Of a stretch of DNA of 49,734 nucleotides, positions 27,700 through 42,789 are shown piece after piece. Source of the DNA: a bacterium. GTDB taxonomy: Bacteria; SZUA-79; Acidulodesulfobacterales; Acidulodesulfobacteraceae. Position 1 is the first letter of the stretch. Every line of letters begins with the position of its first letter. The notes beneath the pieces were generated by a model that had not been told where the DNA came from, did not search any database, and saw only the letters and a list, made by a program, of their open reading frames with translations. Made by a program: the position numbers and the translations under genes. The stretch spans positions 1,992 through 51,725 of the forward strand of contig JAJYQS010000041.1 in the NCBI GenBank assembly GCA_021794475.1. Direction: 5' to 3'.

Positions 27700-28059
27700 A
27701 TGGAACAGAATTCATTTTTGCCTATTTTGATAATGCTTGTAATAGCTATATTGTTTGCAGTTTTTACGGTAGTTTTTTCCTCGCTTTTGGGCAAAAAAAC
27801 TTACGAAAAAGGCAAACTAAAAGCGTATGAATGCGGTATTGAACCTATTGGAGAGCCGCACGCCAGATTTGATATTAAATTTTATTTAATAGCGATATTT
27901 TTTTTATTGTTCGATATAGAAGCATTATTTTTATTTCCATGGGCAGTCGTGTTTTCAAGTCTTGGATTATACGGCTTTGTTGAAATGTTTCTATTTATCG
28001 CTATTTTGGTTTTTGGACTTGCCTATGTGTGGAAAAAAGGAGCGCTTAAATGGGATTAG
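27700..28059 (+). CDS. nuoA: NADH-quinone oxidoreductase subunit A
   Basis: NuoA is a three-helix membrane subunit near the quinone site of complex I. The 119 residues contain the conserved YECGIEP and the [11 protein letters not shown] helix. It is the first gene of the operon. TATAAT lies seven bases before the ATG with no Shine-Dalgarno, so a leaderless transcript is possible; the promoter pairs further upstream are the alternative. It overlaps nuoB by 10 bases. Confidence 0.97.
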
Positions 28060-28520
28060 AAGATAATCTGGGAGATAATGTTCTTACCGCCGCTTTAGAT
28101 AAATTGGTTTCGTGGGGAAGAAAATGGTCAATATGGCCGGCTACTTTCGGCTTAGCCTGCTGCGCTATTGAAATGATGACGACGGCATCGTCCAGATACG
28201 ACATTGACCGTCTGGGACTGATATTCCGTTCAACGCCGAGGCAGTCTGATTTGATGATAGTTTCAGGCAGGGTTTCTTATAAAATGGCGCCTGTAGTAAA
28301 AAGGCTTTATGACCAGATGCCCAATCCGAAATGGGTAATCGCAATGGGCGATTGCGCTTGTTCAGGCGGATTGTTTAATGTTTACAGCGTTGTTCAGGGC
28401 GTAGACCAGATTATACCGGTAGATGTTTATGTGCCGGGGTGTCCTCCGCGTCCGGAAGCTCTTATTTACGGTATCGTGAAATTACAGGAAAAGATTGAAA
28501 AAGGTACTTTAAAAAGATAA
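28050..28520 (+). CDS. nuoB: NADH-quinone oxidoreductase subunit B
   Basis: NuoB carries cluster N2, the last [4Fe-4S] centre before quinone. The ligands are in [19 protein letters not shown] and [11 protein letters not shown]. The 156 residues are typical. The start lies inside nuoA, with AAAGGAG as ribosome binding site. A 102-base AT-rich spacer separates it from nuoC. Confidence 0.98.
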
Positions 28521-28622: not shown

Positions 28623-29162
28623 ATGAACAGTGAAGATATGGAAACGTTTTTTGCGCTAAGCGTAATTAAAGATGTAATGCAGAAGTATATAATTTTAACC
28701 GATACTTCTAACGGTGATGTGCGCATAACAACGGCAAAAGAGAATTTGCCCGAGTTAGTAAAATTTATGAAAGAAGATTCAAGGCTTAATTTTGATATGC
28801 TTTCCGACCTTTTTGGGGTTGATTATCCAAAAAGAGATGAAAGGATTGAAGTTATATACAATTTATATTCTACTAAAAATAATTTTAGAATATTTGTTAA
28901 ATGCCGGAGCAAAATAGATGAACCCGATTATCCGAGTTTAACCTCAATTTATGAGTCTGCCAACTGGTTTGAAAGAGAGGTTTATGACTTGTTCGGCTTA
29001 AAGTTTAAAGGACATCCTCATCTTAAACGCATTCTTAATCCTGAGGATTGGGATGGACATCCTCTGTTAAAAGACTATCCTTTAAGAAAAAGACCGGCTG
29101 TAGAAGAATTAAATTTCGACGCTCCGGGTTTTCTTGAAGAAAAAGAATTTGGAAATAAATAG
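28623..29162 (+). CDS. nuoC: NADH-quinone oxidoreductase subunit C
   Basis: NuoC is the 30-kDa hydrophilic subunit of the connecting module. The signature is [14 protein letters not shown] and HPHLKRIL near residue 125. It is a stand-alone NuoC of 179 residues, not fused to NuoD. The ATG at 28623 has no ribosome binding site; a second in-frame ATG at 28638 is an alternative start. Confidence 0.95.
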
Positions 29163-29184
29163 TTTTAATCATATAATTTTTTTA

Positions 29185-29272
29185 AATTAAATAATTAAAT
29201 AATTAAATAATTAAATAATTAAATAATTAAATAATTAAATAATTAAATAATTAAATAATTAAATAATTAAAT
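29185..29272 (+). repeat. Perfect octanucleotide microsatellite (AATTAAAT)x11
   Basis: Eleven uninterrupted copies of AATTAAAT fill 88 bases of the 140-base spacer between nuoC and nuoD. The array stops 30 bases before the nuoD ATG. Such arrays change length by strand slippage. The transcript of this stretch would be nearly free of G and C and thus unstructured. No gene lies in the spacer. Confidence 0.95.
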
Positions 29273-29302
29273 CATTAAAAATTTAAAAATTGAATAGCAA
29301 AT

Positions 29303-30502
29303 ATGTTTGAATATAAAGATTTTCTTATTGACGTCGAAAATTTTGTAGTAAATATAGGCCCTCAGCATCCGAGTACACACGGAGTGCTCAGAATTGTCGT
29401 TCAATTAGACGGCGAGACGGTCGTACATGCCGAGCCTATTATCGGCTATCTGCATACAAGTATGGAAAAGTATGCTGAATTCAGAACATATCATCAGGCA
29501 GAAACCATTACAGACAGAATGGATTACGTTTCCGGCGCTTCTAATAATCTGGGATATATTTTGACCGTTGAAAAATTGTGCGGTGTTAAAGCTACAAAAC
29601 GCGCTGAATATGTCAGGGTTATCCTGGCAGAACTTACAAGGATAAGTTCTCATTTAGTGTGGCTTGGAACACATGCCGTCGACCTTGGAGCGCTTACAGA
29701 ATTTCTTTATTGTTTTAGAGAGAGAGAACTTGTGTTAGACCTGATTGAAACATTAACCGGCGCAAGAATGACGCCGTCGTTTTTCAGGGTAGGCGGGCTG
29801 GCAAAAGATGTTCATAAAGATTTTGTCGAAAAAGCACGGGATTTTATAAAAATATTTCCTGAAAAAATAAACCAGTATGAAGCGCTTTTGACAAATAATA
29901 AAATCTGGTTTGAGAGAACTAAAAATGTCGGCATCATTTCTAAAGAGGATGCCGTTAATTTTGCTCTTACGGGTCCTTGTTTAAGAGGGAGCGGGCTAAA
30001 ATACGATGTGAGAAAAATAAATCCTTATTCAAGCTATGAAGATTTCGATTTTGACGTGCCGACAGGTGACGTCGGTGATGTTTACGACCGGTATATTGTG
30101 AGAATGGAAGAGATGAGGCAAAGTTTGAAGATTGTGCATCAGGCTTTAGAAAATATTCCGGAAGGTGAATTTCTGAACTATGACGCATATCCGCAGTATG
30201 TCATACCGCCAAAAAAAAGAGCGCTGACTACTATGGAAGGTATGATATCATTGTTTAAATACGGAATGGAGGGTATCAAACCTCCTAAAGGAGAAGCTTA
30301 TGTATCAATTGAAAATCCGCGCGGCGAGTTAGGGTATTACATGATATCTGACGGTTCCGCTTTTCCTTATAGAATGAGGGTTAGGCCGCCGTCTTTCTGC
30401 AATGTCAGCGCGTTAAATAAAATGGCGAAAGGACATTTGCTGGCCGACCTTGTTTCAATATTAGGAAGTATTGATATACTTCTGGGCGAGATAGACAGAT
30501 AA
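29303..30502 (+). CDS. nuoD: NADH-quinone oxidoreductase subunit D
   Basis: NuoD is the 49-kDa subunit that shapes the quinone pocket with NuoB; it descends from the NiFe-hydrogenase large subunit. GPQHPSTHG near residue 19 and the C-terminal SIDILLGEIDR are characteristic, as is ENPRGELGYY. The 399 residues are full length. No Shine-Dalgarno precedes the ATG, which lies just after the octanucleotide array. Confidence 0.98.
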   Translation: MFEYKDFLIDVENFVVNIGPQHPSTHGVLRIVVQLDGETVVHAEPIIGYLHTSMEKYAEFRTYHQAETITDRMDYVSGASNNLGYILTVEKLCGVKATKRAEYVRVILAELTRISSHLVWLGTHAVDLGALTEFLYCFRERELVLDLIETLTGARMTPSFFRVGGLAKDVHKDFVEKARDFIKIFPEKINQYEALLTNNKIWFERTKNVGIISKEDAVNFALTGPCLRGSGLKYDVRKINPYSSYEDFDFDVPTGDVGDVYDRYIVRMEEMRQSLKIVHQALENIPEGEFLNYDAYPQYVIPPKKRALTTMEGMISLFKYGMEGIKPPKGEAYVSIENPRGELGYYMISDGSAFPYRMRVRPPSFCNVSALNKMAKGHLLADLVSILGSIDILLGEIDR

Positions 30503-30572
30503 ATAAGTTTTCCTTGTATTATATTATAATTAATTAACATAAAAATATTAAAATTTATCAGCATATATTTAT

Positions 30573-32480
30573 ATGAATTTAATTGATAAGTATGAAAAGA
30601 AAATAGATATAGAAGCCTTCAAACCATCTGGCCGCGGTCAGATATCTTCCGTGTTAAACTGGAGCGGCGTCGCCTTGCTTAGCGACGAAGATAATAAAAT
30701 TGACCTTGCGAGATGCTACATGGCGGAACTGCAGAAACTTTCCTGCGGCGTATGTGTTCCCTGCAGAATCGGAACATCGGCAGCTTTGGAACTTCTTGAG
30801 AAAATCTGCAGCGGAAAGGCTGACATACAAGACTTAGACAATTTACAAAAAGAATGCGAATGGATAATGTCCGCATCTAAATGCACGGTAGGTACAATGG
30901 GGCCGACCGCCGTCAAAGAATTAATAGAAAATTTCAGAGAAGATTTTGAGAAAGCAATATTAAATAAAGAAATAATACATAAAGGCGATTACATCATAAA
31001 AATAACAGCTCCCTGCATTAACGGATGCCCTTCAAAATTAGACATTCCCAACTGGATTGAAAGGGTCAGGGACGGAAGGTACGAAGATGCCCTTGAATCT
31101 GTCCGCAGAAATACTCCGTTAGCGGCTATTCTCGGCAGATCATGTTTTCATCCCTGTCAGGATAACTGCCGCAGGGCAAACTTAGATAAACCGATTCAGA
31201 TATGCTTAATAAGGCGCTACGCTGCAGATAATGAATTCTATACCGATATTAAACCTAAGTTTGATATTAAAGACAACGGTAATAAAATAGCCGTAATAGG
31301 TTCAGGTCCTGCAGGGTTGAGCTGCGCATATTATCTAAGGCTGATGGGGTATATGCCGGTTATATTTGAAGCTCTTCCGGTTTTAGGCGGCATGATGAAT
31401 GTCGGAATACCAAAATACAGGCTTACGCAGGAATTATTAGACAAAGAGATTAACTATATACTTTCTGCAGGCATAGATTATAAAACCGATAAAAGGCTGG
31501 GAAAGGATTTTTCCATAAAAGATTTATTTAACGACGGATTTAAAGCGGTATATTTAGCTGTAGGCGCGCATAAAGGTCAAACTATAGGTCTGCCCGGGGA
31601 AAGCGATAATCTGAAAGGTTTTTTTGAAGGCGTTAAGTTTTTAAGGGATGTTGCTTTAGGAAATCATATAAAAATAGGAAAAAAAGTAATAATAGAAGGC
31701 GGCGGAAACGTTGCTATGGACTGCTGCAGAACAGCTTTAAGATTAGGTTTTAAGGAAGTAGTGGTTGTCTATAGAAGAGCAAGGGAGCAGATGCCCGCCG
31801 CTGCTTATGAAGTCGATACCGCAATTGAAGAAGGGGTTAAATTTGAATTCTTGACGAATCCGATAGCAATAATAAACGAAAACGGTTCAGTCAGCGGTGT
31901 TACGTGCCGCCGCATGAAATTGGGCGAACCCGATGCCAGCGGAAGGAGAAGCCCGGTTGAAATACCCGGTTCCGAGTTTGATATAGACTGCGATTCTTTT
32001 ATTATGGCTGTAGGTCAGGTACCGGATATTGATTTTCTGAAAGATACCCCTGAAATAAAATCGACTAAATGGAAGACAATCGTTGTTGACGAATATACAA
32101 ATATGACTGATATGCCGGGTGTTTTCGCAGGCGGCGACGCGATGACCGGACCTATAAGCATAGTAAACTCAAACAGAGACGGTAAAACAGCGGCGAAAAG
32201 AATCGATGAATACGTCCGCACCGGAACTTTTAACATAACGGACGACGATGTTTTTGAACATTTTCTTGAGAAATTAGGCGTTTATGATAAAAACGAAGTA
32301 ATAGATTATCCTGATTTTCCTGAAGGCAATTTTCCGCCGGAACAGATTCAGGAGAAAATTGAAAACCGCATAAGCAATTTTACAGAGGTGGAAAAAGGAT
32401 TTACGGCTGACGATGTAGTGTATGAAGCTACACGATGCATGAGGTGTTATATGATGATGCTTATAACATTTAAAAAATAA
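30573..32480 (+). CDS. NuoF-C-terminal/GltD fusion: SfrB-like FAD-NAD(P)H dehydrogenase subunit replacing NuoEF
   Basis: Residues about 45-125 match the C-terminal [4Fe-4S] domain of NuoF, with C58, C61, C64 and C104 (SCGVCVPCR...ASKCTVG), the ligands of cluster N3. Residues about 140-215 resemble the GltD N-terminal iron-sulfur domain (C148, C152, C191, C195, C199). From about 238 there is a GltD-type flavoprotein: FAD motif VIGSGPAGLS (242-250), NAD(P)H-side motif GGGNVAMD (376-383) with YRR (400-402), and GDAMTGP near the end; C622 and C625 close the protein. The NuoF FMN/NADH domain and NuoE are missing. The architecture resembles SfrB of Geobacter NADPH oxidoreductase. Placed where nuoE-nuoF should be, it probably feeds electrons into NuoG; NADPH preference is inference. 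Confidence 0.85.
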   Translation: MNLIDKYEKKIDIEAFKPSGRGQISSVLNWSGVALLSDEDNKIDLARCYMAELQKLSCGVCVPCRIGTSAALELLEKICSGKADIQDLDNLQKECEWIMSASKCTVGTMGPTAVKELIENFREDFEKAILNKEIIHKGDYIIKITAPCINGCPSKLDIPNWIERVRDGRYEDALESVRRNTPLAAILGRSCFHPCQDNCRRANLDKPIQICLIRRYAADNEFYTDIKPKFDIKDNGNKIAVIGSGPAGLSCAYYLRLMGYMPVIFEALPVLGGMMNVGIPKYRLTQELLDKEINYILSAGIDYKTDKRLGKDFSIKDLFNDGFKAVYLAVGAHKGQTIGLPGESDNLKGFFEGVKFLRDVALGNHIKIGKKVIIEGGGNVAMDCCRTALRLGFKEVVVVYRRAREQMPAAAYEVDTAIEEGVKFEFLTNPIAIINENGSVSGVTCRRMKLGEPDASGRRSPVEIPGSEFDIDCDSFIMAVGQVPDIDFLKDTPEIKSTKWKTIVVDEYTNMTDMPGVFAGGDAMTGPISIVNSNRDGKTAAKRIDEYVRTGTFNITDDDVFEHFLEKLGVYDKNEVIDYPDFPEGNFPPEQIQEKIENRISNFTEVEKGFTADDVVYEATRCMRCYMMMLITFKK

Positions 32481-32489
32481 TAACTAAAT

Positions 32490-32561
32490 AATAACTAATA
32501 GCTGAATAATATAATAATATAATCAAAAAACAATAACTAAAAGCTGAATAATATAATAATA
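32490..32561 (+). repeat. Near-perfect 30-bp direct repeat in the fusion gene-nuoG spacer
   Basis: AATAACTAATAGCTGAATAA (from 32490) and AATAACTAAAAGCTGAATAA (from 32532) each continue into TATAATAATA; only one base differs over 30. The spacing is 42 bases. The duplication makes up most of the 91-base spacer. Confidence 0.9.
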
Positions 32562-32571
32562 CAACTATCAT

Positions 32572-34719
32572 ATGGATATCGAAATAACTATAAACGGCAA
32601 AAAAGTGATGACGAAGACGGGGCTTACGATACTTGAAGCCGCTTCTCAGGCAGGCATCAGAATACCTGTTTTGTGTTATCTGAGAAGGTTAAGACCTATC
32701 GGCTCATGCAGGATATGCTCGGTTGAGGTTAAAGGCATTAAACATCCATTGCCTTCATGTGTTGCGCGGGTGAAAGAAGGTTATGAAATATCTACCGATA
32801 CCGATAAAGTTTGGGAAGTCAGAAAAGGGTCGCTTTCGCATCTTTTATTAGACCACCCTTTAGATTGTCCTGTCTGCGATAAATCAGGCGACTGTCTGCT
32901 GCAGGATTTGTCCTTTGAATTCGGGCTTACCGTTCAAAAAAATAAAAAATTATATCCGGATAGGACGCAAATTTTTAAAAGCGATTTTATTGAATATAAT
33001 GCCACGAGATGTGTCCTGTGTTCAAGATGCATAAGAGTCTGTTCCGATATGTACGGAAATCCTTTTTTAGAAATAAAAGACAAAGGATATAATGGTTATA
33101 TAGGATTAACGCAAGAAAATAAAACAGAAAAAGGAGCGGTTCCGCAAGGCAGCGCTTTTGTAGAGATAAAAGATAAAGACGATAAGAATTATTTAGACTG
33201 TTATTATTGCGGCAATTGTATAGAAGTTTGTCCCGTGGGAGCATTGGTTTCAAAACAGTCAAAATTTAAAGAAAGATACTGGCAGGAATCACCGTTTTCA
33301 TCAGTGTGCAATAAATGTTCCGCTGCCTGCAGGGTTGAATATTACAGGTACGCTAAAGACGAATCTCTCGTCAGGACTGCCGCCGCATTTGGCGGATATC
33401 TTTGCAGGAGCGGTTTTTTTTACGACGCTATAGGCAAAAATTTAAAAGACGACGATTATTATATTAAAAACGCTTTAGTAAGAATAAAATCGGATTTTTC
33501 AAATAGCGGTTATACCGATGCGTTAAACCATTTGGCTGACAGATTGAAAAATATTATACAAAATAATGAGATGGACAGAACTGCCGTAATAGTTTCTTCA
33601 TCGGTTTCTACGAATGACGGTTATTTAATTTCAAATTTTGTTAAAGATGTTTTGAAGCCTGCGGGTTTTGATATAGACAAAACTAGTTTTTACCGTAAAA
33701 ATTATTTGAAATTTAAAGAGATATTTAAATCCGAAGAAAACTTTGAAATCAATGCCGTTCAAAATTCTGACTTTGTTTTATATATAGGTTCAATTGAGGA
33801 TGAAATACCTTATGCTTCTTATAATATAATGAAGAGCCATAGAGAACACGGCGGTAGATTAATTTTAATAGATGTTTCAGATGCTAATGCTAAAAAAAGA
33901 AGTGAAAATTTTGCAAGATTTGAAGATATAGCGTCAATAAAAATTGATATAAATAAAGATTATGACGGCGATTTACATAAATATCTGAATGAACTGAGGC
34001 AGAATCTTTATGATTTTAATTTTAAAAAAACCGACGAATCGGTCGATGCAATTCTTAAAAATAATACTATATCTATTATTTTAGGCGATAATTTTATGTC
34101 TTTGGCGGATAGAGATAAAGAATTGCTGATACTTAAAGAAATTACAGGTTTCTCGAGAGACGAACAAAAAATAGTCTATGTTTTTCCTCTTATAAAGCCT
34201 TTCAATTACAGAGGCCTTATTGCGGCGGGAATAAATAACAAAGCTCAATATTTATCCTATGAAAATATTATTAGCGGAATAGAAACCGGGCAGATTAAAA
34301 ATTTAATTTATATCGGCGATTATGAAGAACCGGAACATAATGTCCGCGGCTTGAAACTGTCGCGATATATTACCGATTTAAACTTTGTTGCCGCTTTATC
34401 TTCAAAAATAAGCAGTATAACCGCCATGGCGGATATTGTTTTGCCCGTGCAGGATTTTTTAGAACATAAAGACGGGTATTTTGAAAATTTTGAAGGCAAG
34501 ACGATTCATGTTAGCAATGAGTTTAATTTGGGAGAATATAGATACGGCATAGCTGAAATTTTAGATGATTTGTCCGATAAACTTGGAATTTCATTTAATA
34601 CAGGCAATATATCCGCTCAATTTTTAGAAATGATTAAAGCAAATAAAATAATCCATTTCAATAAAATTAAACCAAAAAGTAAGTTTTATTATAATGACCC
34701 AAGTAAATTGTTCTATTAA
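32572..34719 (+). CDS. nuoG: NADH-quinone oxidoreductase subunit G (NuoG/SfrA-like)
   Basis: NuoG relays electrons through the peripheral arm. Ligands are easily read: [2Fe-2S] C35, C46, C49, C63; the His-Cys cluster H95, C99, C102, C108; two four-Cys sets C147/C150/C153/C157 and C200/C203/C206/C210; and C236, C239, C243, C268 at the start of the molybdopterin-oxidoreductase-like domain, an N7-type set. The 715 residues are shorter than E. coli NuoG, with a reduced, divergent C-terminal domain that shows no catalytic molybdenum-site motif. Because the gene follows the SfrB-like fusion, the pair also resembles SfrAB; full nuo context favours a complex I role. No ribosome binding site is visible at ATG 32572. 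Confidence 0.92.
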   Translation: MDIEITINGKKVMTKTGLTILEAASQAGIRIPVLCYLRRLRPIGSCRICSVEVKGIKHPLPSCVARVKEGYEISTDTDKVWEVRKGSLSHLLLDHPLDCPVCDKSGDCLLQDLSFEFGLTVQKNKKLYPDRTQIFKSDFIEYNATRCVLCSRCIRVCSDMYGNPFLEIKDKGYNGYIGLTQENKTEKGAVPQGSAFVEIKDKDDKNYLDCYYCGNCIEVCPVGALVSKQSKFKERYWQESPFSSVCNKCSAACRVEYYRYAKDESLVRTAAAFGGYLCRSGFFYDAIGKNLKDDDYYIKNALVRIKSDFSNSGYTDALNHLADRLKNIIQNNEMDRTAVIVSSSVSTNDGYLISNFVKDVLKPAGFDIDKTSFYRKNYLKFKEIFKSEENFEINAVQNSDFVLYIGSIEDEIPYASYNIMKSHREHGGRLILIDVSDANAKKRSENFARFEDIASIKIDINKDYDGDLHKYLNELRQNLYDFNFKKTDESVDAILKNNTISIILGDNFMSLADRDKELLILKEITGFSRDEQKIVYVFPLIKPFNYRGLIAAGINNKAQYLSYENIISGIETGQIKNLIYIGDYEEPEHNVRGLKLSRYITDLNFVAALSSKISSITAMADIVLPVQDFLEHKDGYFENFEGKTIHVSNEFNLGEYRYGIAEILDDLSDKLGISFNTGNISAQFLEMIKANKIIHFNKIKPKSKFYYNDPSKLFY

Positions 34720-34780: not shown

Positions 34781-35767
34781 ATGATATTCTGGTTAATAAC
34801 AACATTGATAAAAATATTGCTTGTGTTCGGAGTGCTGCTTCTATCGGCAGCCTATCTGACGCTTTTAGAGCGCAAGGTAGCAGCCCGCATACAAAATCGG
34901 CTTGGACCGATGGAAGCGGGTTTCCACGGAATGCTGCAGCCTATAGCGGACGGTATAAAACTGTTTTTCAAAGAAGATATTATACCCGCCGATGCCAACA
35001 GAATGCTATTTATTCTTGCGCCTATTATTGTTGTTATTCCTGCATTGACAACATTTGCGGTTATTCCTTTCGGAGCTCCGATAACAATATTGGGGCATGT
35101 TGTTCCTCTGCAGATTACTAACGTAAATATAGGCATATTGTTTATATTGGCGCTTTCGTCGCTGGGAATATACGGCGTGGTAATAGGAGGTTGGGCATCA
35201 AACAGCAAATATTCGCTGCTGGGAGCCATAAGAACCGCTGCTCAGATGATAAGCTACGAGCTGTCTCTTGCTCTTTCAATAATTGGCGTAATCATGATAG
35301 CGGGGAATTTGAGTCTGGCGCAGATTGTTTCATCGCAGGCGCATATGTGGTTTATAGTTTATCAGCCCGTCGGATTTTTAATTTATTTAATTGCTTCAAC
35401 GGCTGAAATGAACAGGGTGCCGTTCGACCTTGGCGAGGCGGAAGGCGAGTTGGTTGCCGGTTTTCATACGGAATATTCAAGTATGAAATTTGCATTTTAC
35501 TTTATAGGAGAATATGCACAGATAGTAGTCAATTCTGCCATTATCACTACGCTTTTTCTTGGCGGATGGGAAGGACCGTTTCTTCCTTCGGTGCTATGGT
35601 TCGCATTAAAAGTTTTTGCAGTAATACTCGTTTATATATGGTTCAGATGGACGTATCCGAGATTAAGATATGATGAGCTTATGGATCTTGGATGGAAGAT
35701 TCTGCTTCCTTTAGCGCTGGCAAATATTGTTGTTACCGGATTTGTAATGATACTGTTGGGAAAATAA
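34781..35767 (+). CDS. nuoH: NADH-quinone oxidoreductase subunit H
   Basis: NuoH anchors the peripheral arm and forms part of the quinone channel. Eight or so membrane helices are evident. Conserved segments are ERKVAARIQNRLGP near residue 30, QPIADGIKLFFKED near 51, and AEMNRVPFDLGEAEGELVAG near 207 with its acidic residues. The 328 residues are typical. TATAAT six bases upstream of the ATG is noted in the spacer entry. Confidence 0.98.
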   Translation: MIFWLITTLIKILLVFGVLLLSAAYLTLLERKVAARIQNRLGPMEAGFHGMLQPIADGIKLFFKEDIIPADANRMLFILAPIIVVIPALTTFAVIPFGAPITILGHVVPLQITNVNIGILFILALSSLGIYGVVIGGWASNSKYSLLGAIRTAAQMISYELSLALSIIGVIMIAGNLSLAQIVSSQAHMWFIVYQPVGFLIYLIASTAEMNRVPFDLGEAEGELVAGFHTEYSSMKFAFYFIGEYAQIVVNSAIITTLFLGGWEGPFLPSVLWFALKVFAVILVYIWFRWTYPRLRYDELMDLGWKILLPLALANIVVTGFVMILLGK

Positions 35768-35943: not shown

Positions 35944-36456
35944 ATGGATACTAAAAAAGAAGAAAATTCGCTAATATTAATATCGAAAAACTTTCTTATA
36001 GGGTTGAAAACGACGATGGGAACTTTTTTTAAAAAACCCGTTACTTTTCAATATCCTAAAGAGCGTCTGAGATTGGCAGAAAATTTCAGGGGATTTCCGA
36101 AGCTTAATACTAATAAAGACAAATCGTTGAGATGTGTTGCATGTATGCTGTGCCAGACTGTCTGCCCTTCAGAAGCTATAAAAATAAATTCAGGTTATGT
36201 AGATTATGGAAAAGAGCATGAGCTTACGGAAAGGCAGAAACATAACCATAGTTTGGATAAAATAGCCCCCGGCGTCGTTAATGACGGAAGAAGGCATCCT
36301 GAGTCATTTGAAATTGATTTGCTGAGGTGCATATGCTGCGGCTATTGCGAAGAGATTTGTCCAGAAGAAGCCATAAGTATGTCTGACAAGTTTGAGTTTG
36401 GATTTTATACCAGAGATGAAGGAATATTTGGAATAGATAAATTAATTGAGCTATAA
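35944..36456 (+). CDS. nuoI: NADH-quinone oxidoreductase subunit I
   Basis: NuoI holds clusters N6a and N6b next to NuoB. Two 8Fe-ferredoxin motifs are present: CVACMLCQTVCPSEA near residue 62 and CICCGYCEEICPEEA near residue 130. The 170 residues are normal. The N-terminal stretch KKPVTFQYPKER contains the conserved TxxYP-like element. No Shine-Dalgarno is seen before ATG 35944. Confidence 0.97.
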   Translation: MDTKKEENSLILISKNFLIGLKTTMGTFFKKPVTFQYPKERLRLAENFRGFPKLNTNKDKSLRCVACMLCQTVCPSEAIKINSGYVDYGKEHELTERQKHNHSLDKIAPGVVNDGRRHPESFEIDLLRCICCGYCEEICPEEAISMSDKFEFGFYTRDEGIFGIDKLIEL

Positions 36457-36534: not shown

Positions 36535-37032
36535 TTGGAAGCGCTTTTTTATATATTTTCAATAATTGCAATCTTTTCTGCGCTGATGGTAATATTGGTA
36601 AAAAATCCCTTAACGTCTGCGTTGTACATTATATTGTGTTTTTTTGCTCTGGCAGGATTTTATATTCTTCTGAATATGCAATTTCTGGCTGCCATGCAGA
36701 TTTTAGTCTATGCAGGAGCAATAATAGTTCTTATAGTTTTAGTCATTATGCTGCTTAATCTGGCTAAGGCTAAAGATACGATTAGGGATTTTCACCAGAT
36801 GGCTGTGGGCATCATAGCCGTTTTACTGCTATTTGCAGAGGTCATATTATATCTTAATGCTGCCGGCGAGAGTAAACCTACGGGTATTTATACTAATGCG
36901 GTAATTAATAAAATAGGAAATACGCAAATTATAGGTCAATTTTTATTTACCAAGTATGTTTTTCCGTTTGAGGTAGCTTCAATTTTACTGTTAGTTGCGG
37001 TTATAGGTGCTTATATTTTTGCTAAAAAATAA
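36535..37032 (+). CDS. nuoJ: NADH-quinone oxidoreductase subunit J
   Basis: NuoJ is a five-helix membrane subunit whose third helix takes part in coupling. The segment QILVYAGAIIVLIVLVIMLL near residue 60 is the family hallmark. The 165 residues are typical. The start is TTG at 36535, supported by a GAGG site about eight bases upstream. It ends with AYIFAKK. Confidence 0.96.
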   Translation: MEALFYIFSIIAIFSALMVILVKNPLTSALYIILCFFALAGFYILLNMQFLAAMQILVYAGAIIVLIVLVIMLLNLAKAKDTIRDFHQMAVGIIAVLLLFAEVILYLNAAGESKPTGIYTNAVINKIGNTQIIGQFLFTKYVFPFEVASILLLVAVIGAYIFAKK

Positions 37033-37108: not shown

Positions 37109-37414
37109 ATGAACGTGAACGTAAATGATTATCTGGCGGTGGCATCAATTATCTTCTGTATAGGCGCGTTAGGCGTTCTGATAAGGAAAAATCTTATAAC
37201 TATTTTTCTGAGTTTAGAATTAATGTTTAATGCTGCCAATTTGGGCTTTGTTGCCGTTTCTGAATATTTAAATTTAATGAGCGGCGATATTTTCGTTATA
37301 TTTATTATGGTTGTCGCAGCTGCCGAAGCGGCAATTTTACTGGGTATTGCCATTGCTTTTTACAGGGAAAAAGGCACAATAAACATAGATAAAGCAAATG
37401 AATTAAGAATGTAA
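37109..37414 (+). CDS. nuoK: NADH-quinone oxidoreductase subunit K
   Basis: NuoK is a three-helix proton-channel subunit related to MrpC. The conserved membrane Glu residues are in LELMFNAANLG and VVAAAEAAILLGIAIAF. The 101 residues match the family. A weak GGAC site precedes the ATG. It follows nuoJ after a 76-base AT-rich spacer. Confidence 0.98.
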   Translation: MNVNVNDYLAVASIIFCIGALGVLIRKNLITIFLSLELMFNAANLGFVAVSEYLNLMSGDIFVIFIMVVAAAEAAILLGIAIAFYREKGTINIDKANELRM

Positions 37415-37581: not shown

Positions 37582-39465
37582 ATGAATTCAAAAGATTTAA
37601 TAGTTTGGCTGATTCCTTTTTTCCCGCTCCTTGGCGCAATTTTGTTGGGGGTTTTCGGAAAATATCTTAAAAATTATTCGGGATATTTAGGAAGCGTATT
37701 CATCGTTATTTCATTTATACTTTCAACCGTAATTTTTTTTACGGTAGCTTACGGGCATAGTTTTACCTCTACGCTATACTCATGGATTGACGCCTCGTAT
37801 TTTAAAGTTAATGTATCCACTACTGTTGACAGGCTGTCTGTGATAATGCTGGTAATGGTAACCGGCATCAGCTCCTTAGTCCATATTTATTCAATTGGAT
37901 ACATGAAAGACGATAAAGGATTTGCAAGATATTTCTCTTATTTGAATTTATTTGTATTTTCAATGATAATGCTGATAATGGCAAATAATTTTTTATTGCT
38001 GTATGTTTTTTGGGAAGCTGTAGGATTCTGTTCATATATTTTAATCGGTTTCTGGTATGAAAAAAAATCTGCATCCAATGCCGGCAAAAAGGCTTTTATT
38101 GTAAATAGGATAGGCGATTTCGGGTTTGCTCTCGGAGTGATGCTTATATTTGTTAATATGGGCACGTTAAGCTATTCATCTGTTTTTTCCGGAATACATT
38201 TATTGCCGCCCTATCTTATTACAACTATTGCTTTATTGCTGTTTGCCGGAGCAGTCGGTAAATCCGCGCAATTTCCTCTTCATGTCTGGCTGCCGGATGC
38301 CATGGAAGGTCCGACCCCGGTCAGCGCGCTTATTCATGCAGCAACTATGGTAACAGCGGGCGTATATCTTATAGCAAGATGTCATATTATATTTTCTTAT
38401 TCTCCGGACGCTTCCAATGTTGTACTTATAATCGGAGGTACAACCGCTTTTATTGCAGCTTTTATTGCTATGACCCAGTTTGATATAAAACGAATAATCG
38501 CCTACTCTACTATAAGTCAGCTGGGCTATATGTTTATGGCTGTCGGAATAGGTTCTTATGCTGCAGGTATATTTCATTTAGTATCGCACGCAATATTCAA
38601 AGGTCTTTTGTTTTTAACTGCAGGCAGCGTAATGCACGGAATGAGCGGCGAGCTTGATTTAAGAAAAATGGGCGGTTTATATTCAAAGATGAAGAAAACT
38701 GCTATTACTTTCATTGTCGGCGGCCTTGCCCTGTCCGGAATACCTCCTTTTTCAGGGTTTTTCAGCAAAGATGCGATACTTGCGTCTTTATTTAATAAAG
38801 GAGATTATTTTTTCTGGATTATAGGGGAACTTGTTGCATTTATGACTGCGTTTTATATTTTCAGACTTATTTTTAATGTTTTTTTTGGTGAATCTCATGC
38901 AGATAAAAATTTACATGTTCATGAATCGCCGAACGTAATGACTATACCGCTGATAATTTTGGCTTGCTTTGCTGCCGTGTTTGGTTTTATCGGCATGCCT
39001 CCGTTTGACCATTCTATATTTTATAACTTTATAAATAAAGATTTTGCAAATTCATTTAATTTTTCTCCGGCGGTAAATAATTATCCGTGGTATCTGCTGA
39101 GTACAGTTTCCGTTATCGCAGGTCTTAGCGGAATATATGCGGCATATGTTTTTTATATAAAAAAATCTTTCGATTTAGAAATGCTCAAGAAAAGATTTAA
39201 GACTGTGTATGCCCTTTCCTTTAATAAATTATATATTGATGAAATATACGATTTTGCAATTGTCAAACCTATGAAAAATTTTTCTGTTTTTTTATGGAGA
39301 GTGGTAGATTCTTTTGTTATAGACGGCGCCGTGAACGGTATAGCGCAATGGATAAGCGTTACCTCGTCAAAAGTAAGAAAGGTGCAAAACGGAATGCTGA
39401 TGAGCTACATTTTTACGCTGAGTGTCGGGGTTATAGCGCTGCTGGCTTATTATTTTGTGAGATGA
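37582..39465 (+). CDS. nuoL: NADH-quinone oxidoreductase subunit L
   Basis: NuoL is the distal antiporter-like proton pump, with the long lateral helix. MrpA-type motifs are present: FWEAVGFCSYILIGFWYEK near residue 145 with the key Glu, KSAQFPLHVWLPDAMEGPTPVSALIHAAT near 230 with Lys and His residues, and the HAIFKGLLF helix. The 627 residues are typical, with the C-terminal amphipathic region and a final transmembrane helix after residue 600. An AAAGG element lies about 15 bases before the ATG. Confidence 0.98.
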   Translation: MNSKDLIVWLIPFFPLLGAILLGVFGKYLKNYSGYLGSVFIVISFILSTVIFFTVAYGHSFTSTLYSWIDASYFKVNVSTTVDRLSVIMLVMVTGISSLVHIYSIGYMKDDKGFARYFSYLNLFVFSMIMLIMANNFLLLYVFWEAVGFCSYILIGFWYEKKSASNAGKKAFIVNRIGDFGFALGVMLIFVNMGTLSYSSVFSGIHLLPPYLITTIALLLFAGAVGKSAQFPLHVWLPDAMEGPTPVSALIHAATMVTAGVYLIARCHIIFSYSPDASNVVLIIGGTTAFIAAFIAMTQFDIKRIIAYSTISQLGYMFMAVGIGSYAAGIFHLVSHAIFKGLLFLTAGSVMHGMSGELDLRKMGGLYSKMKKTAITFIVGGLALSGIPPFSGFFSKDAILASLFNKGDYFFWIIGELVAFMTAFYIFRLIFNVFFGESHADKNLHVHESPNVMTIPLIILACFAAVFGFIGMPPFDHSIFYNFINKDFANSFNFSPAVNNYPWYLLSTVSVIAGLSGIYAAYVFYIKKSFDLEMLKKRFKTVYALSFNKLYIDEIYDFAIVKPMKNFSVFLWRVVDSFVIDGAVNGIAQWISVTSSKVRKVQNGMLMSYIFTLSVGVIALLAYYFVR

Positions 39466-39632: not shown

Positions 39633-41174
39633 ATGAGTATTTTTTTAAAGTATATTTTATCGATAATAATTTTTTTTCCTCTGCTGTCCGCCCTTATATT
39701 AGTTTTCGTAAACAAAAAAGCGGAGGGGCTGCTGAGAAATCTTGCTACGGTTTTATCATTAGCAGAATTTGCGATTTCCCTGTTTTTATTTATATACTTT
39801 AAATCAAATACCTATGAGTTTCAGTTTATAGAGAGATTCAGCTGGATAAGGGAATTTGGAGCGTCTTATTTTCTCGGTATTGACGGTGTAAGTTTATTTA
39901 TGATACTGCTTACCACGCTGATGACGTTTGTTTCTTTATTATCAAGCTATAAATATATTAAAGACCACGTTAAAGAATTTGTTATTTTAATGCTTGTGCT
40001 GGAGACGTTTATGCTCGGAACATTTGCTTCGCTAGATGTTCTGCTGTTTTACCTGTTCTGGGAGTTTATGCTTATTCCTATGTATTTTATTATAGGCATG
40101 TGGGGCTCCGGAAGAAGAATCTATTCAGCCGTAAAATTTGTTTTATATACGTTAGCCGGTTCGCTGATAATGCTTTTTGGACTTATTACGATATTTATAT
40201 TGCATTATAATCAAACCGGCAATTTTACATTTAATTTGTTAAAACTGTATAACACTAATATTCCCTTAACGCTGCAAATAGTCCTGTTTATTGCGATATT
40301 CTTAGGATTTGCAGTAAAAGTGCCTGTGTTTCCGTTTCATACATGGCTGCCAGATGCTCATACCGAAGCGCCTACCGCCGGAAGCGTCATTTTAGCGGGC
40401 GTTTTGCTGAAATTCGGCGTTTACGGTTTTTTTAGATTTGCAATTCCTTTAATGCCTGAGGCGGCGCTTATACTCACGCCTATTATACTTGTTCTTGCGG
40501 TAATCAGCATAATATACGGGGCATTAGTTTCTATAGTGCAAAAAGATTTAAAAAGATTAGTCGCTTTTTCAAGCGTATCTCATATGGGTTTTATAATGCT
40601 TGGATTGTTTGCTATGACTGCAGTCAGCGTTGACGGGTCGGTTCTGCAGATGATAAATCACGGTATTTCTACGGGCGCTCTTTTTCTTTTTGTAGGAATG
40701 CTTTACGAAAGACGTCATACAAGACTTATTGCAGATTTTGGCGGTTTAGCTAAAAAAGCTCCGATTTTTGCCGCCTTATTTATGATAGCTGTTTTGTCTT
40801 CGGTTGGACTGCCCGGATTAAACGGGTTCGTCGGAGAATTTTTAATTTTAGTCGGTTCGTTCAAACAATATACAATATTTACTATATTTGCAACGAGTGG
40901 TATTATTTTTGCCGCAGTTTATTTGCTATGGATGTTTCAAAGGGTTATGTTTCAGGATATAACAAATCAAAAAAATGAGGACTTTAAAGATATGACCTTG
41001 AGAGAGATAATGACTGTTTTGCCGCTAATTTTTTTAATGTTTTTCATAGGTTTATATCCAGATGTATTTTTAAGCAGAATAAATCCGACCGTTGTTCATT
41101 TTGTAAATATAATAGAACATAATAAATACGCTTATAATTTAATTAAAGCAAAAATGGGGTTGTTCAATGCTTGA
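39633..41174 (+). CDS. nuoM: NADH-quinone oxidoreductase subunit M
   Basis: NuoM is the middle antiporter-like pump. FWEFMLIPMYFIIGMWG near residue 142 has the key Glu, KVPVFPFHTWLPDAHTEAPT near 230 the Lys and HTWLPDAH signature, and SSVSHMGFI and LNGFVGEFLIL follow. The 513 residues are typical. The ATG is preceded by AGGA at good spacing. The gene overlaps nuoN by 8 bases. Confidence 0.98.
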   Translation: MSIFLKYILSIIIFFPLLSALILVFVNKKAEGLLRNLATVLSLAEFAISLFLFIYFKSNTYEFQFIERFSWIREFGASYFLGIDGVSLFMILLTTLMTFVSLLSSYKYIKDHVKEFVILMLVLETFMLGTFASLDVLLFYLFWEFMLIPMYFIIGMWGSGRRIYSAVKFVLYTLAGSLIMLFGLITIFILHYNQTGNFTFNLLKLYNTNIPLTLQIVLFIAIFLGFAVKVPVFPFHTWLPDAHTEAPTAGSVILAGVLLKFGVYGFFRFAIPLMPEAALILTPIILVLAVISIIYGALVSIVQKDLKRLVAFSSVSHMGFIMLGLFAMTAVSVDGSVLQMINHGISTGALFLFVGMLYERRHTRLIADFGGLAKKAPIFAALFMIAVLSSVGLPGLNGFVGEFLILVGSFKQYTIFTIFATSGIIFAAVYLLWMFQRVMFQDITNQKNEDFKDMTLREIMTVLPLIFLMFFIGLYPDVFLSRINPTVVHFVNIIEHNKYAYNLIKAKMGLFNA

Positions 41175-42789
41175 TTTAGCGCAAATTTATAACGGGTACT
41201 ATCTTGAGAAAAGTTTACTGAGCGTGATGCCGGAAGCTGTGTTAATAGTTTTTGCTTTTTTGATTTTATTGGCAGGATTGTTTAATAACCCTTCTAAGAA
41301 TAGCGTAAATTCTTATTATTTGGCTTTAATAGGCGTTGCGTTTTCTTTTCTTTATCTTTTTATGCTGTCAGACCATACAATAAAGGGTTTTTACGGCTCA
41401 ATCGTTTTTGATAAATTTGATGTATTTTTATTTACGGCTATATTATTATCCGGTTTTCTTACTATTTTAATGTCAAAAAATTATTTTGATACGCGCAGCG
41501 TTTTAATACCGGAATATTATAGTCTCGTTCTGTTTTCGGTTTCTGCAATGATGCTTTTAGTATCTTCGATTAACCTTATTATGATTTTTCTGTCAATTGA
41601 ATTTATGTCGATATGCGCCTACATTTTAACAGGTTATTTAAAGGGTGAATCACGGAGTACCGAAGCTGCAATGAAATACTTTGTGCTTGGCACTTTTGCT
41701 TCCGCTTTTCTATTGTTCGGTTCTGTTTTTATATATGCCGCTACAGGACATTTAAGTTTATATAAAATACATAATTTTATATTTGAGCAAAATTATAATG
41801 CGCATTACGCTTATAATCTGCATACCTTTTTGGCGATAGGATTAATCTTACTCTTAGTGGGACTGGCATTTAAAATGTCTTTATTCCCTTTTCACGCATG
41901 GACGCCGGACAGTTATGACGGAGCACCGACGCCTGTTACCAATCTTATGGCGACAGGAATAAAAATTGCCGCTTTCGGCGTTTTTATAAGAGTTTTTACA
42001 TCTATATATAGTTTCAACGTATTTAATTTTTATAATATTTTATGGATTTTAGCAATATTGACGATGACCTTCGGAAATTTTGCCGCTTTGCTGCAGACCG
42101 ATTTAAAACGGCTTATAGCCTATTCGTCCATTGCTCAGGCAGGCTATATATTGATTGGCGTTATAGCGGGGGGATACTATGGGATATCCGGAACCTTATT
42201 CTATTTGCTGGCGTATGTTTTTATGACGGCGGGAGCCTTTGCAATTATTATTATGTTTGAAAATTTAAATTTAGCATCTGTTAATATAAAAAGTTATTCA
42301 GGTCTGGGATATAAATATCCGCTTGCAGGCGCCGCATTTTCTTTTTTTCTGCTGTCGCTTGCGGGAATACCCGTAACAGCGGGGTTTATGGGAAAATTTT
42401 TTGTATTTTCAGCCGCAATTAAATCCGGCTATTATTGGCTTGTTGTAATAGCGTTATTAAACAGCGCATTTGCGGCATATTACTATATTAAAATAATTGT
42501 CAAAATGTATATGTCGGATAATAACAATAACGGCGGACAGTTAAATTTATCAAACGGCAGAAATAGTATCATTATAAATGCCGTTAATACTAATAAGGAT
42601 TCACAATCATATGCGGACAACGGCAGCGGTAAAACTGCATTAACAGAAGCTGTTTCGTTGAAATCTGCGGCGCCTGCTTTGATTATAGCCATTATTATAT
42701 GTTTAATTTTTACCTTGATACTCGGTATATTTCCGCAGCCGGTTATCAGTTTTGCGTCCAGATCGGTAACATCATTGTGGAGTATCTAA
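41167..42789 (+). CDS. nuoN: NADH-quinone oxidoreductase subunit N
   Basis: NuoN is the proximal antiporter-like pump. SIEFMSICAYILTGYLKG near residue 140, KMSLFPFHAWTPDSYDGAPT near 237, and SSIAQAGYILIG are conserved. At 540 residues it is longer than usual. Between the last two membrane helices (about residues 451-498) there is a polar, Asn- and Ser-rich insert starting SDNNNNGGQLNLSNG. The start lies within nuoM with a GGGG-type site. Its end overlaps the proposed ispE start. Confidence 0.97.
   Translation: MLDLAQIYNGYYLEKSLLSVMPEAVLIVFAFLILLAGLFNNPSKNSVNSYYLALIGVAFSFLYLFMLSDHTIKGFYGSIVFDKFDVFLFTAILLSGFLTILMSKNYFDTRSVLIPEYYSLVLFSVSAMMLLVSSINLIMIFLSIEFMSICAYILTGYLKGESRSTEAAMKYFVLGTFASAFLLFGSVFIYAATGHLSLYKIHNFIFEQNYNAHYAYNLHTFLAIGLILLLVGLAFKMSLFPFHAWTPDSYDGAPTPVTNLMATGIKIAAFGVFIRVFTSIYSFNVFNFYNILWILAILTMTFGNFAALLQTDLKRLIAYSSIAQAGYILIGVIAGGYYGISGTLFYLLAYVFMTAGAFAIIIMFENLNLASVNIKSYSGLGYKYPLAGAAFSFFLLSLAGIPVTAGFMGKFFVFSAAIKSGYYWLVVIALLNSAFAAYYYIKIIVKMYMSDNNNNGGQLNLSNGRNSIIINAVNTNKDSQSYADNGSGKTALTEAVSLKSAAPALIIAIIICLIFTLILGIFPQPVISFASRSVTSLWSI

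Follow-up and report, generated by a model that had tools for sequence, protein, structure and literature searches.

Complex I is normally defined by NADH. In the 49,734-nucleotide stretch of DNA analysed here (the window; contig JAJYQS010000041.1 of assembly GCA_021794475.1, positions 1,992 to 51,725, from a bacterium of the Acidulodesulfobacteraceae), a nuo operon encodes the enzyme without nuoE and without the part of NuoF that binds NADH and flavin mononucleotide (FMN), and the question that this locus raises is where electrons enter the complex. A sequence-only reading of the window had pointed to a 635-residue protein encoded between nuoD and nuoG. We conclude that the operon probably encodes a 13-gene complex I that is linked to NADP(H). 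In it this single protein, a fusion of the NuoF N3-cluster domain with a GltD-type flavoprotein, takes the place of both NuoE and the NADH/FMN part of NuoF. The replacement itself is well supported by genome evidence, namely the slot that the fusion occupies, its conservation across the lineage and the finding of no other complex-I-type NuoEF. From sequence we infer that the fusion assembles into complex I, that it is specific for NADPH, that it does not bifurcate and in which direction electrons flow.

On the forward strand the gene order of the window is acs, pepA, nuoA-B-C-D, the fusion, nuoG-H-I-J-K-L-M-N and ispE, where the three flanking genes carry labels that we assigned. All of nuoA-D and nuoG-N lie in this one cluster, in order around the fusion, which bears out the earlier description of an operon with the membrane and connecting subunits plus NuoG. 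NuoE and a NuoF with an NADH/FMN domain are missing from it, as had also been proposed, and since the gap between nuoD and the fusion measures only 70 bp there is no room for nuoE or nuoF there. NuoG, NuoI and NuoB retain the cysteines for clusters N1b, N4 and N5, N6a/b, and N2, respectively, the clusters being named by homology. nuoA, B, C, D, G and I were tested against Pfam and NCBIfam family models, while nuoH, J, K, L, M and N were named from sequence and position. In a promoter and terminator scan, none of the gaps between nuoA and nuoN contained a terminator-like site; such sites numbered 22 against 11.3 expected, every one within genes, and the scan lends at best weak support to a single nuoA-nuoN transcript.

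The composition of the fusion agreed with what had been read from its sequence. Pfam reported an NADH_4Fe-4S (N3) domain, a Fer4_20 domain and a Pyr_redox_2 domain (Table 1), and did not report Complex1_51K, the FMN/NADH domain of NuoF, anywhere in the 635 residues. This is an SfrB-like architecture, with the N3 domain joined to Fer4_20 and Pyr_redox and the FMN domain absent. GltD-type NCBIfam models matched below their cut-offs, and NuoF models matched only through their last ~100 positions. Among PDB sequences the closest were those of the GltD regions in Nfn-ABC (382 and 380 bits) and in StnC (327 bits), with HydB/NuoF chains taking that place for residues ~24-134, and a Foldseek search with an AlphaFold model of the fusion ranked NfnABC, NfnL and StnC chains first. 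The four N3 ligands C58, C61, C64 and C104 were cysteine in 25 of 25 aligned homologues. An alignment for the order comprised 24 rows (the window and 23 loci; a further fetched locus, L070, 97% identical to the window, stood outside it), and in all 24 the four N3 cysteines, C148, C152, C191, C195, C199, C622 and C625 were conserved, as were R283 and Y400-R401-R402. C622 and C625 are likely to complete the ligand set of the two-cluster domain. The proposal that the protein provides an entry point through flavin adenine dinucleotide (FAD) is supported by its family, its fold and its ligand residues.

The fusion is not peculiar to one assembly. The genome set for the order comprised 30 genomes, which also served as the set for the whole phylum, Candidatus Acidulodesulfobacteriota, and a full-length match was present in 28 of them. 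A chance or misassembled fusion is ruled out by these 28 genomes, in which it lies on separate contigs. A contig scan, which reached outside the phylum through two short peptide patterns only and left the Desulfobacterota, including Geobacter, outside the survey, returned 24 loci at 67-97% identity over fusion residues 1-240 and one Bacillota locus at 33%. Among the 24 are SZUA-79 (L089) and Candidatus Acididesulfobacter diazotrophicus AP1 (L081), the latter placed by NCBI in Candidatus Acidulodesulfobacteriota. The order nuoC-nuoD-fusion-nuoG-H-I-J-K-L was found in 24 of 24 fetched loci, and nuoA-nuoB were visible in 22, the remaining two being cut by the contig start. The N3-GltD fusion in the nuo operon is thus a lineage trait, as the survey of related genomes suggested in the sequence-only reading has shown. 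According to the excerpted text of the 2019 paper that described the order, its bins carry the nuo genes except nuoE, nuoF and nuoG (PMC6776010); in the AP1 record the fusion is nevertheless present, as is a NuoG with 60% identity to that of the window, so that for AP1 the input module had escaped notice and is not missing. Among the matches listed from the open-licence PMC literature, available as excerpts, no description of an N3-GltD fusion inside a nuo operon was found.

Within this lineage the operon is unevenly conserved. In comparisons of the window (28623-34719) with L074, L081 and L082, all of one genus, nuoC-nuoD-fusion-nuoG were only 60-85% identical and nuoA, nuoB and nuoH 92-97% identical. 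The L081 fusion is nearer to those of L075 and L083 (89-91%) than to that of the window (74%), and the other nuo genes of L075 and L083 are more distant. On these identities, the nuoC-nuoD-fusion-nuoG block looks as if it has been exchanged between lineages.

A complete NuoEF pair elsewhere in the genome would have argued against replacement. Queries with E. coli NuoE, the FMN part of E. coli NuoF and the genome's own FMN domain gave no match at an expectation value (E) of 1e-3 in 24 of 24 loci, and both control loci (E. coli and S. meliloti) matched the same NuoE/NuoF queries. The NuoF FMN domain (PF01512) was found in 18 of the 30 genomes and was absent from 12, including 7 of the 19 genomes that are ≥90% complete and ≤5% contaminated. 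It occurred at 20 distinct places, of which 19 adjoin the N-terminus of a formate dehydrogenase alpha subunit and one is cut by a contig end; a second complex-I-type NuoEF was rejected on these grounds for the genomes examined, whose assemblies are not closed. The window genome (92% complete, 111 contigs) has one NuoF-like protein outside the nuo operon, a 655-residue frame that begins with a short stretch resembling NuoE (model positions 6-62 of 145) and lies immediately upstream of the gene for a 1,074-residue formate dehydrogenase alpha subunit. At this locus (L003 8361-13728) the NuoE-start/NuoF fusion contains long Asn-rich insertions and is followed by FdhA.

The fusion and NuoG might also be a pair of their own, a soluble NADPH oxidoreductase like SfrAB that is merely encoded in the nuo operon, with the other 11 subunits fed by ferredoxin or another carrier. 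Geobacter SfrAB likewise combines a GltD-like NADPH subunit with a NuoG-like SfrA, although in the excerpted description it is soluble and apart from nuo, whereas the window pair sits inside the nuo operon (PMC7483475). SfrB was compared by description only, and Bacillota relatives of the same architecture were used in its place. Three of these (L147, L150 and L154) are indeed paired with a NuoG-like protein of ~700 residues with no other nuo genes adjacent, and 11-subunit complex I enzymes with unknown donors are known (excerpt of PMC11238625). Set against this, in all 24 loci the fusion is flanked by nuoD on one side and nuoG-nuoH on the other, and the window genome shows a single NuoG, its other NuoG-like matches being the formate dehydrogenase. 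A NuoG tree (27 rows after a misread row, Kom_CAN, was dropped; the SfrA-like type is represented by three Bacillota proteins, so named from their context) joined the NuoG of the order to three canonical NuoG in its best form (84/91, not starred), whereas a single clade of NuoG with the SfrA-like proteins was not rejected (p-AU 0.22), which weighs on the side of a soluble pair. Taken together, we regard such a pair as unlikely and favour an input module of complex I.

As to the electron donor, the sequence-only reading had allowed NADPH or ferredoxin. The fusion contains the GGGN...YRR...MPA nucleotide site of the NADP(H)-binding GltD family, and its conservation, together with the Arg at the position that is Glu in bifurcating NfnL, favours NADPH over ferredoxin. 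Few residues set NADP(H)/NAD(H) specificity, and a Bacillota relative (L199) has G/K at the RR positions; the fusion might thus accept NADH, leaving the enzyme an NADH:quinone oxidoreductase with a different flavoprotein. We consider this quite improbable, since YRR is present in 24 of 24 order rows, as in the aligned NfnABC, StnC and NfnL chains.

Ferredoxin as the real donor, or an FAD that bifurcates or confurcates NADPH and ferredoxin as in Nfn, is suggested by the presence of NfnL among the sequence and fold relatives. In StnC, whose flavin is reported as non-bifurcating, the FAD-proximal cluster ligand is K170, a glutamate in bifurcating NfnB, and a K170R variant retained about half of the activity (excerpt of PMC10482914). 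Alignment with the PDB chains placed the equivalent position at R214 of the fusion. This residue is Arg in the 24 order rows, Lys in 21 rows from outside the order, including one of Nfn-ABC type, and Glu in both NfnL chains aligned; C211, three residues before it, is conserved as Cys throughout the 24 order rows but shared by only 2 of the 21 others (L094 and L161). Moreover, no NfnS-like gene was seen in the nuo cluster, the rest of the genome not having been searched for one. A role for ferredoxin thus appears very improbable, and we read from R214 that the FAD of the fusion would be linear and non-bifurcating. The Stn/Nfn-ABC transhydrogenases resemble the fusion in having a GltD domain with a C-terminal RCxxC, a proximal-cluster position other than Glu and a NuoG-like cluster chain to feed; unlike it, they have GltD joined to NuoG, alongside a NuoF homologue, whereas the window GltD is fused to N3 and there is no FMN domain.

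Several observations weigh against an NADP(H)-linked complex I. The AlphaFold model of the fusion is only fair (mean predicted local distance difference test, pLDDT, 72.5; predicted template modelling score 0.65), with pLDDT below 50 in parts of Fer4_20 and in residues 569-626. R214 is Arg only in the clade of the order among the rows compared, the NADPH preference rests on motifs, and two of the 30 genomes (86% and 59% complete) have no fusion. The case for the fusion as the entry to complex I comes from genes and one monomer model, and a common origin of its NuoG with SfrA-like proteins, as noted above, was not rejected.

In the mechanism that we propose, the N-terminal N3 domain would dock on NuoG as that of NuoF does, and the GltD/NfnL-type domain would bind FAD and NADP(H). 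Electrons would pass from NADPH through FAD, two [4Fe-4S] clusters and N3 to the NuoG clusters, and from there through N6a/N6b of NuoI and N2 of NuoB to quinone, with the flow coupled to proton pumping by NuoH/L/M/N. The path could in principle be reversed, with quinol and the proton-motive force yielding NADPH. PntB was found over its cut-off in none of the 30 genomes (there was one sub-threshold match). The RnfC/NqrA model PF13375 matched in 20 of the 30, 15 over the cut-off; these matches fall in 630-679-residue frames, cover only about positions 33-89 of the 101 in the model and were taken as false. One such place was opened (L231), and its protein ends in a biotin-carrier domain; the Bacillus subtilis control, for which we know of no Rnf, matched PF13375 as well. 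Since neither a PntB above its cut-off nor a convincing Rnf/Nqr turned up, the complex may link NADP(H) to the proton-motive force, possibly in the reverse direction. It would then be the one connection detected between NADP(H) and quinone that is coupled to protons, NDH-2 and other routes not having been searched for. Members of the order reportedly fix CO2 through the reductive tricarboxylic acid cycle and possess cytochrome bd (excerpt of PMC6776010), and reverse operation that makes NADPH in acid habitats with a large pH gradient is plausible.

Two precedents frame this proposal. Nuo-Bfu, as described in the excerpt of Schut et al. 2022 (PMC9304861), likewise has a different module for electron input set amid its nuo genes, with BfuABC in place of NuoEFG; its BfuBC core uses NADH and ferredoxin, whereas the window operon lacks NuoE, the FMN domain and homologues of BfuB (FMN) and BfuC, and its flavin domain is GltD-type. 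In Pelobacter carbinolicus an SfrB-like protein (Pcar_2503) has been proposed as the NADPH partner of a [FeFe]-hydrogenase (excerpt of PMC3543383); the same cassette lies beside HydA in L094, L118, L158, L159 and others, where the acceptor is the hydrogenase and not complex I. The window case combines the idea of an input module in nuo with that of an SfrB-like NADPH partner, and differs in having neither NuoE nor an FMN domain.

Table 1. Features of the nuo operon and its fusion protein in the window, with related Bacillota clusters
Feature	Coordinates	Strand	Basis or remark
nuoA	27700..28059	+	family model
nuoB	28050..28520	+	family models; tandem C37-C38 of N2
nuoC	28623..29162	+	family models
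nuoD	29303..30502	+	family models; without CxxC Ni-ligand motifs, hence not a hydrogenase
N3-domain/GltD fusion (SfrB-like flavoprotein), 635 residues, nuoE-nuoF slot	30573..32480	+	open reading frame, domain models, conservation
NADH_4Fe-4S (N3 cluster) domain, residues 44-127	30702..30953	+	Pfam E 4e-20; ligands C58, C61, C64, C104
Fer4_20 domain, residues 145-222	31005..31238	+	E 4e-21; conserved C148, C152, C191, C195, C199
C211 and R214, within Fer4_20			beside FAD-proximal cluster site; cluster roles by homology
Pyr_redox_2 (FAD/NAD(P)H) domain, residues 238-536	31284..32180	+	E 6e-31; R283, Y400-R401-R402
C-terminal C622-M-R-C625 (RCMRC motif)	32436..32447	+	conserved; cluster assignment by homology to NfnL/StnC
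nuoG, 715 residues	32572..34719	+	family models; Cys sets N1b, N5, two [4Fe-4S] of N4 region, N7
nuoH	34781..35767	+	sequence and position
nuoI	35944..36456	+	family models; two CxxCxxCxxxC motifs (N6a/N6b)
nuoJ	36535..37032	+	sequence and position
nuoK	37109..37414	+	sequence and position
nuoL	37582..39465	+	sequence and position
nuoM	39633..41174	+	sequence and position
nuoN	41167..42789	+	sequence and position
Bacillota N3-GltD, 11-subunit nuo and fdhA clusters	L196 514-15549; L197 557-15424; L198 880-15773; L199 1940-16502		

Beyond what the sequence-only reading had described, the cassette is a wider plug-in module that also occurs with other complex I operons in Bacillota. In this GTDB phylum, to which the locus found outside the order belongs, 398 genomes were sampled with fusion residues 1-240 as query (E of 1e-25 or better), and 86 of them matched, at 97 places. 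We viewed 41 neighbourhoods, chosen non-randomly by frame length and score, so that the class counts are not frequencies: 15 lie beside a [FeFe]-hydrogenase, 9 beside a formate dehydrogenase alpha subunit, 5 beside a NuoG-like protein (three whole, SfrA-like and of ~700 residues; two cut by a contig end) and 4 in nuo clusters, and 8 were cut or unclassified. Of the 24 proteins beside a hydrogenase or formate dehydrogenase, at least 8 still have an FMN domain before N3 and GltD, and since the domain is retained in them, it is plausible that NuoF was first fused to GltD and that the FMN domain was lost afterwards. These complete NuoF (FMN and N3)-GltD proteins of 1,031-1,128 residues (L161 and L223-L229) are possible forerunners of the FMN-less fusion. 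A different arrangement was seen on a large plasmid of Acetoanaerobium noterae (L119 5837-11151), where a pair of Nfn-ABC/Stn type consists of a NuoF-like frame of 576 residues and a NuoG-GltD frame of 1,196 residues.

The four Bacillota nuo clusters read fusion-nuoA-B-C-D-I-H-J-K-L-M-N-fdhA, with the fusion of L198 on the opposite strand. The N-terminus encoded by their fdhA is of NuoG type, and the gene contains a single in-frame TGA, likely a selenocysteine codon. The window operon shares the lack of NuoEF with known 11-subunit complex I-like enzymes; unlike it, those enzymes lack NuoG too, and in Desulfitobacterium the donor is given as unknown (excerpt of PMC11238625). No description of the Bacillota nuo-fdhA clusters was found in the excerpts of open PMC papers. 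In a tree of the fusion (30 rows, 554 columns), the nine rows of the order formed one group (100/100) on a long branch. Next to it stood a second group, made up of the nuo-fdhA and SfrA-like rows together with two formate dehydrogenase rows; support was 99/99 for both groups jointly and 94/98 (not starred) for the second by itself. The rows from nuo-fdhA clusters did not group together, and the tree suggests that N3-GltD was joined to complex I more than once. It is possible, if somewhat doubtful, that N3-GltD is a general NADP(H) port for NuoG-type proteins, joined to complex I repeatedly, its partner being NuoG in Candidatus Acidulodesulfobacteriota and, in Bacillota, an 11-subunit nuo operon that closes with a selenocysteine-type formate dehydrogenase in the place of NuoG. 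The products would be NADP(H):quinone and formate/NADP(H):quinone oxidoreductases coupled to the proton-motive force, which in autotrophic acidophiles would run mainly backward, the steep proton gradient making NADPH without PntAB.

The Bacillota clusters provide a concrete candidate for the electron donor of some 11-subunit complex I enzymes, a question that the excerpted literature leaves open (PMC11238625). An NADPH-type entry in the complex I of Candidatus Acidulodesulfobacteriota would amend the published account, which records nuoE, nuoF and nuoG simply as missing. It would couple proton pumping directly to the anabolic nucleotide pool, and the replacement would change what fuels, or is made by, the respiratory chain of these uncultured acid-mine bacteria.

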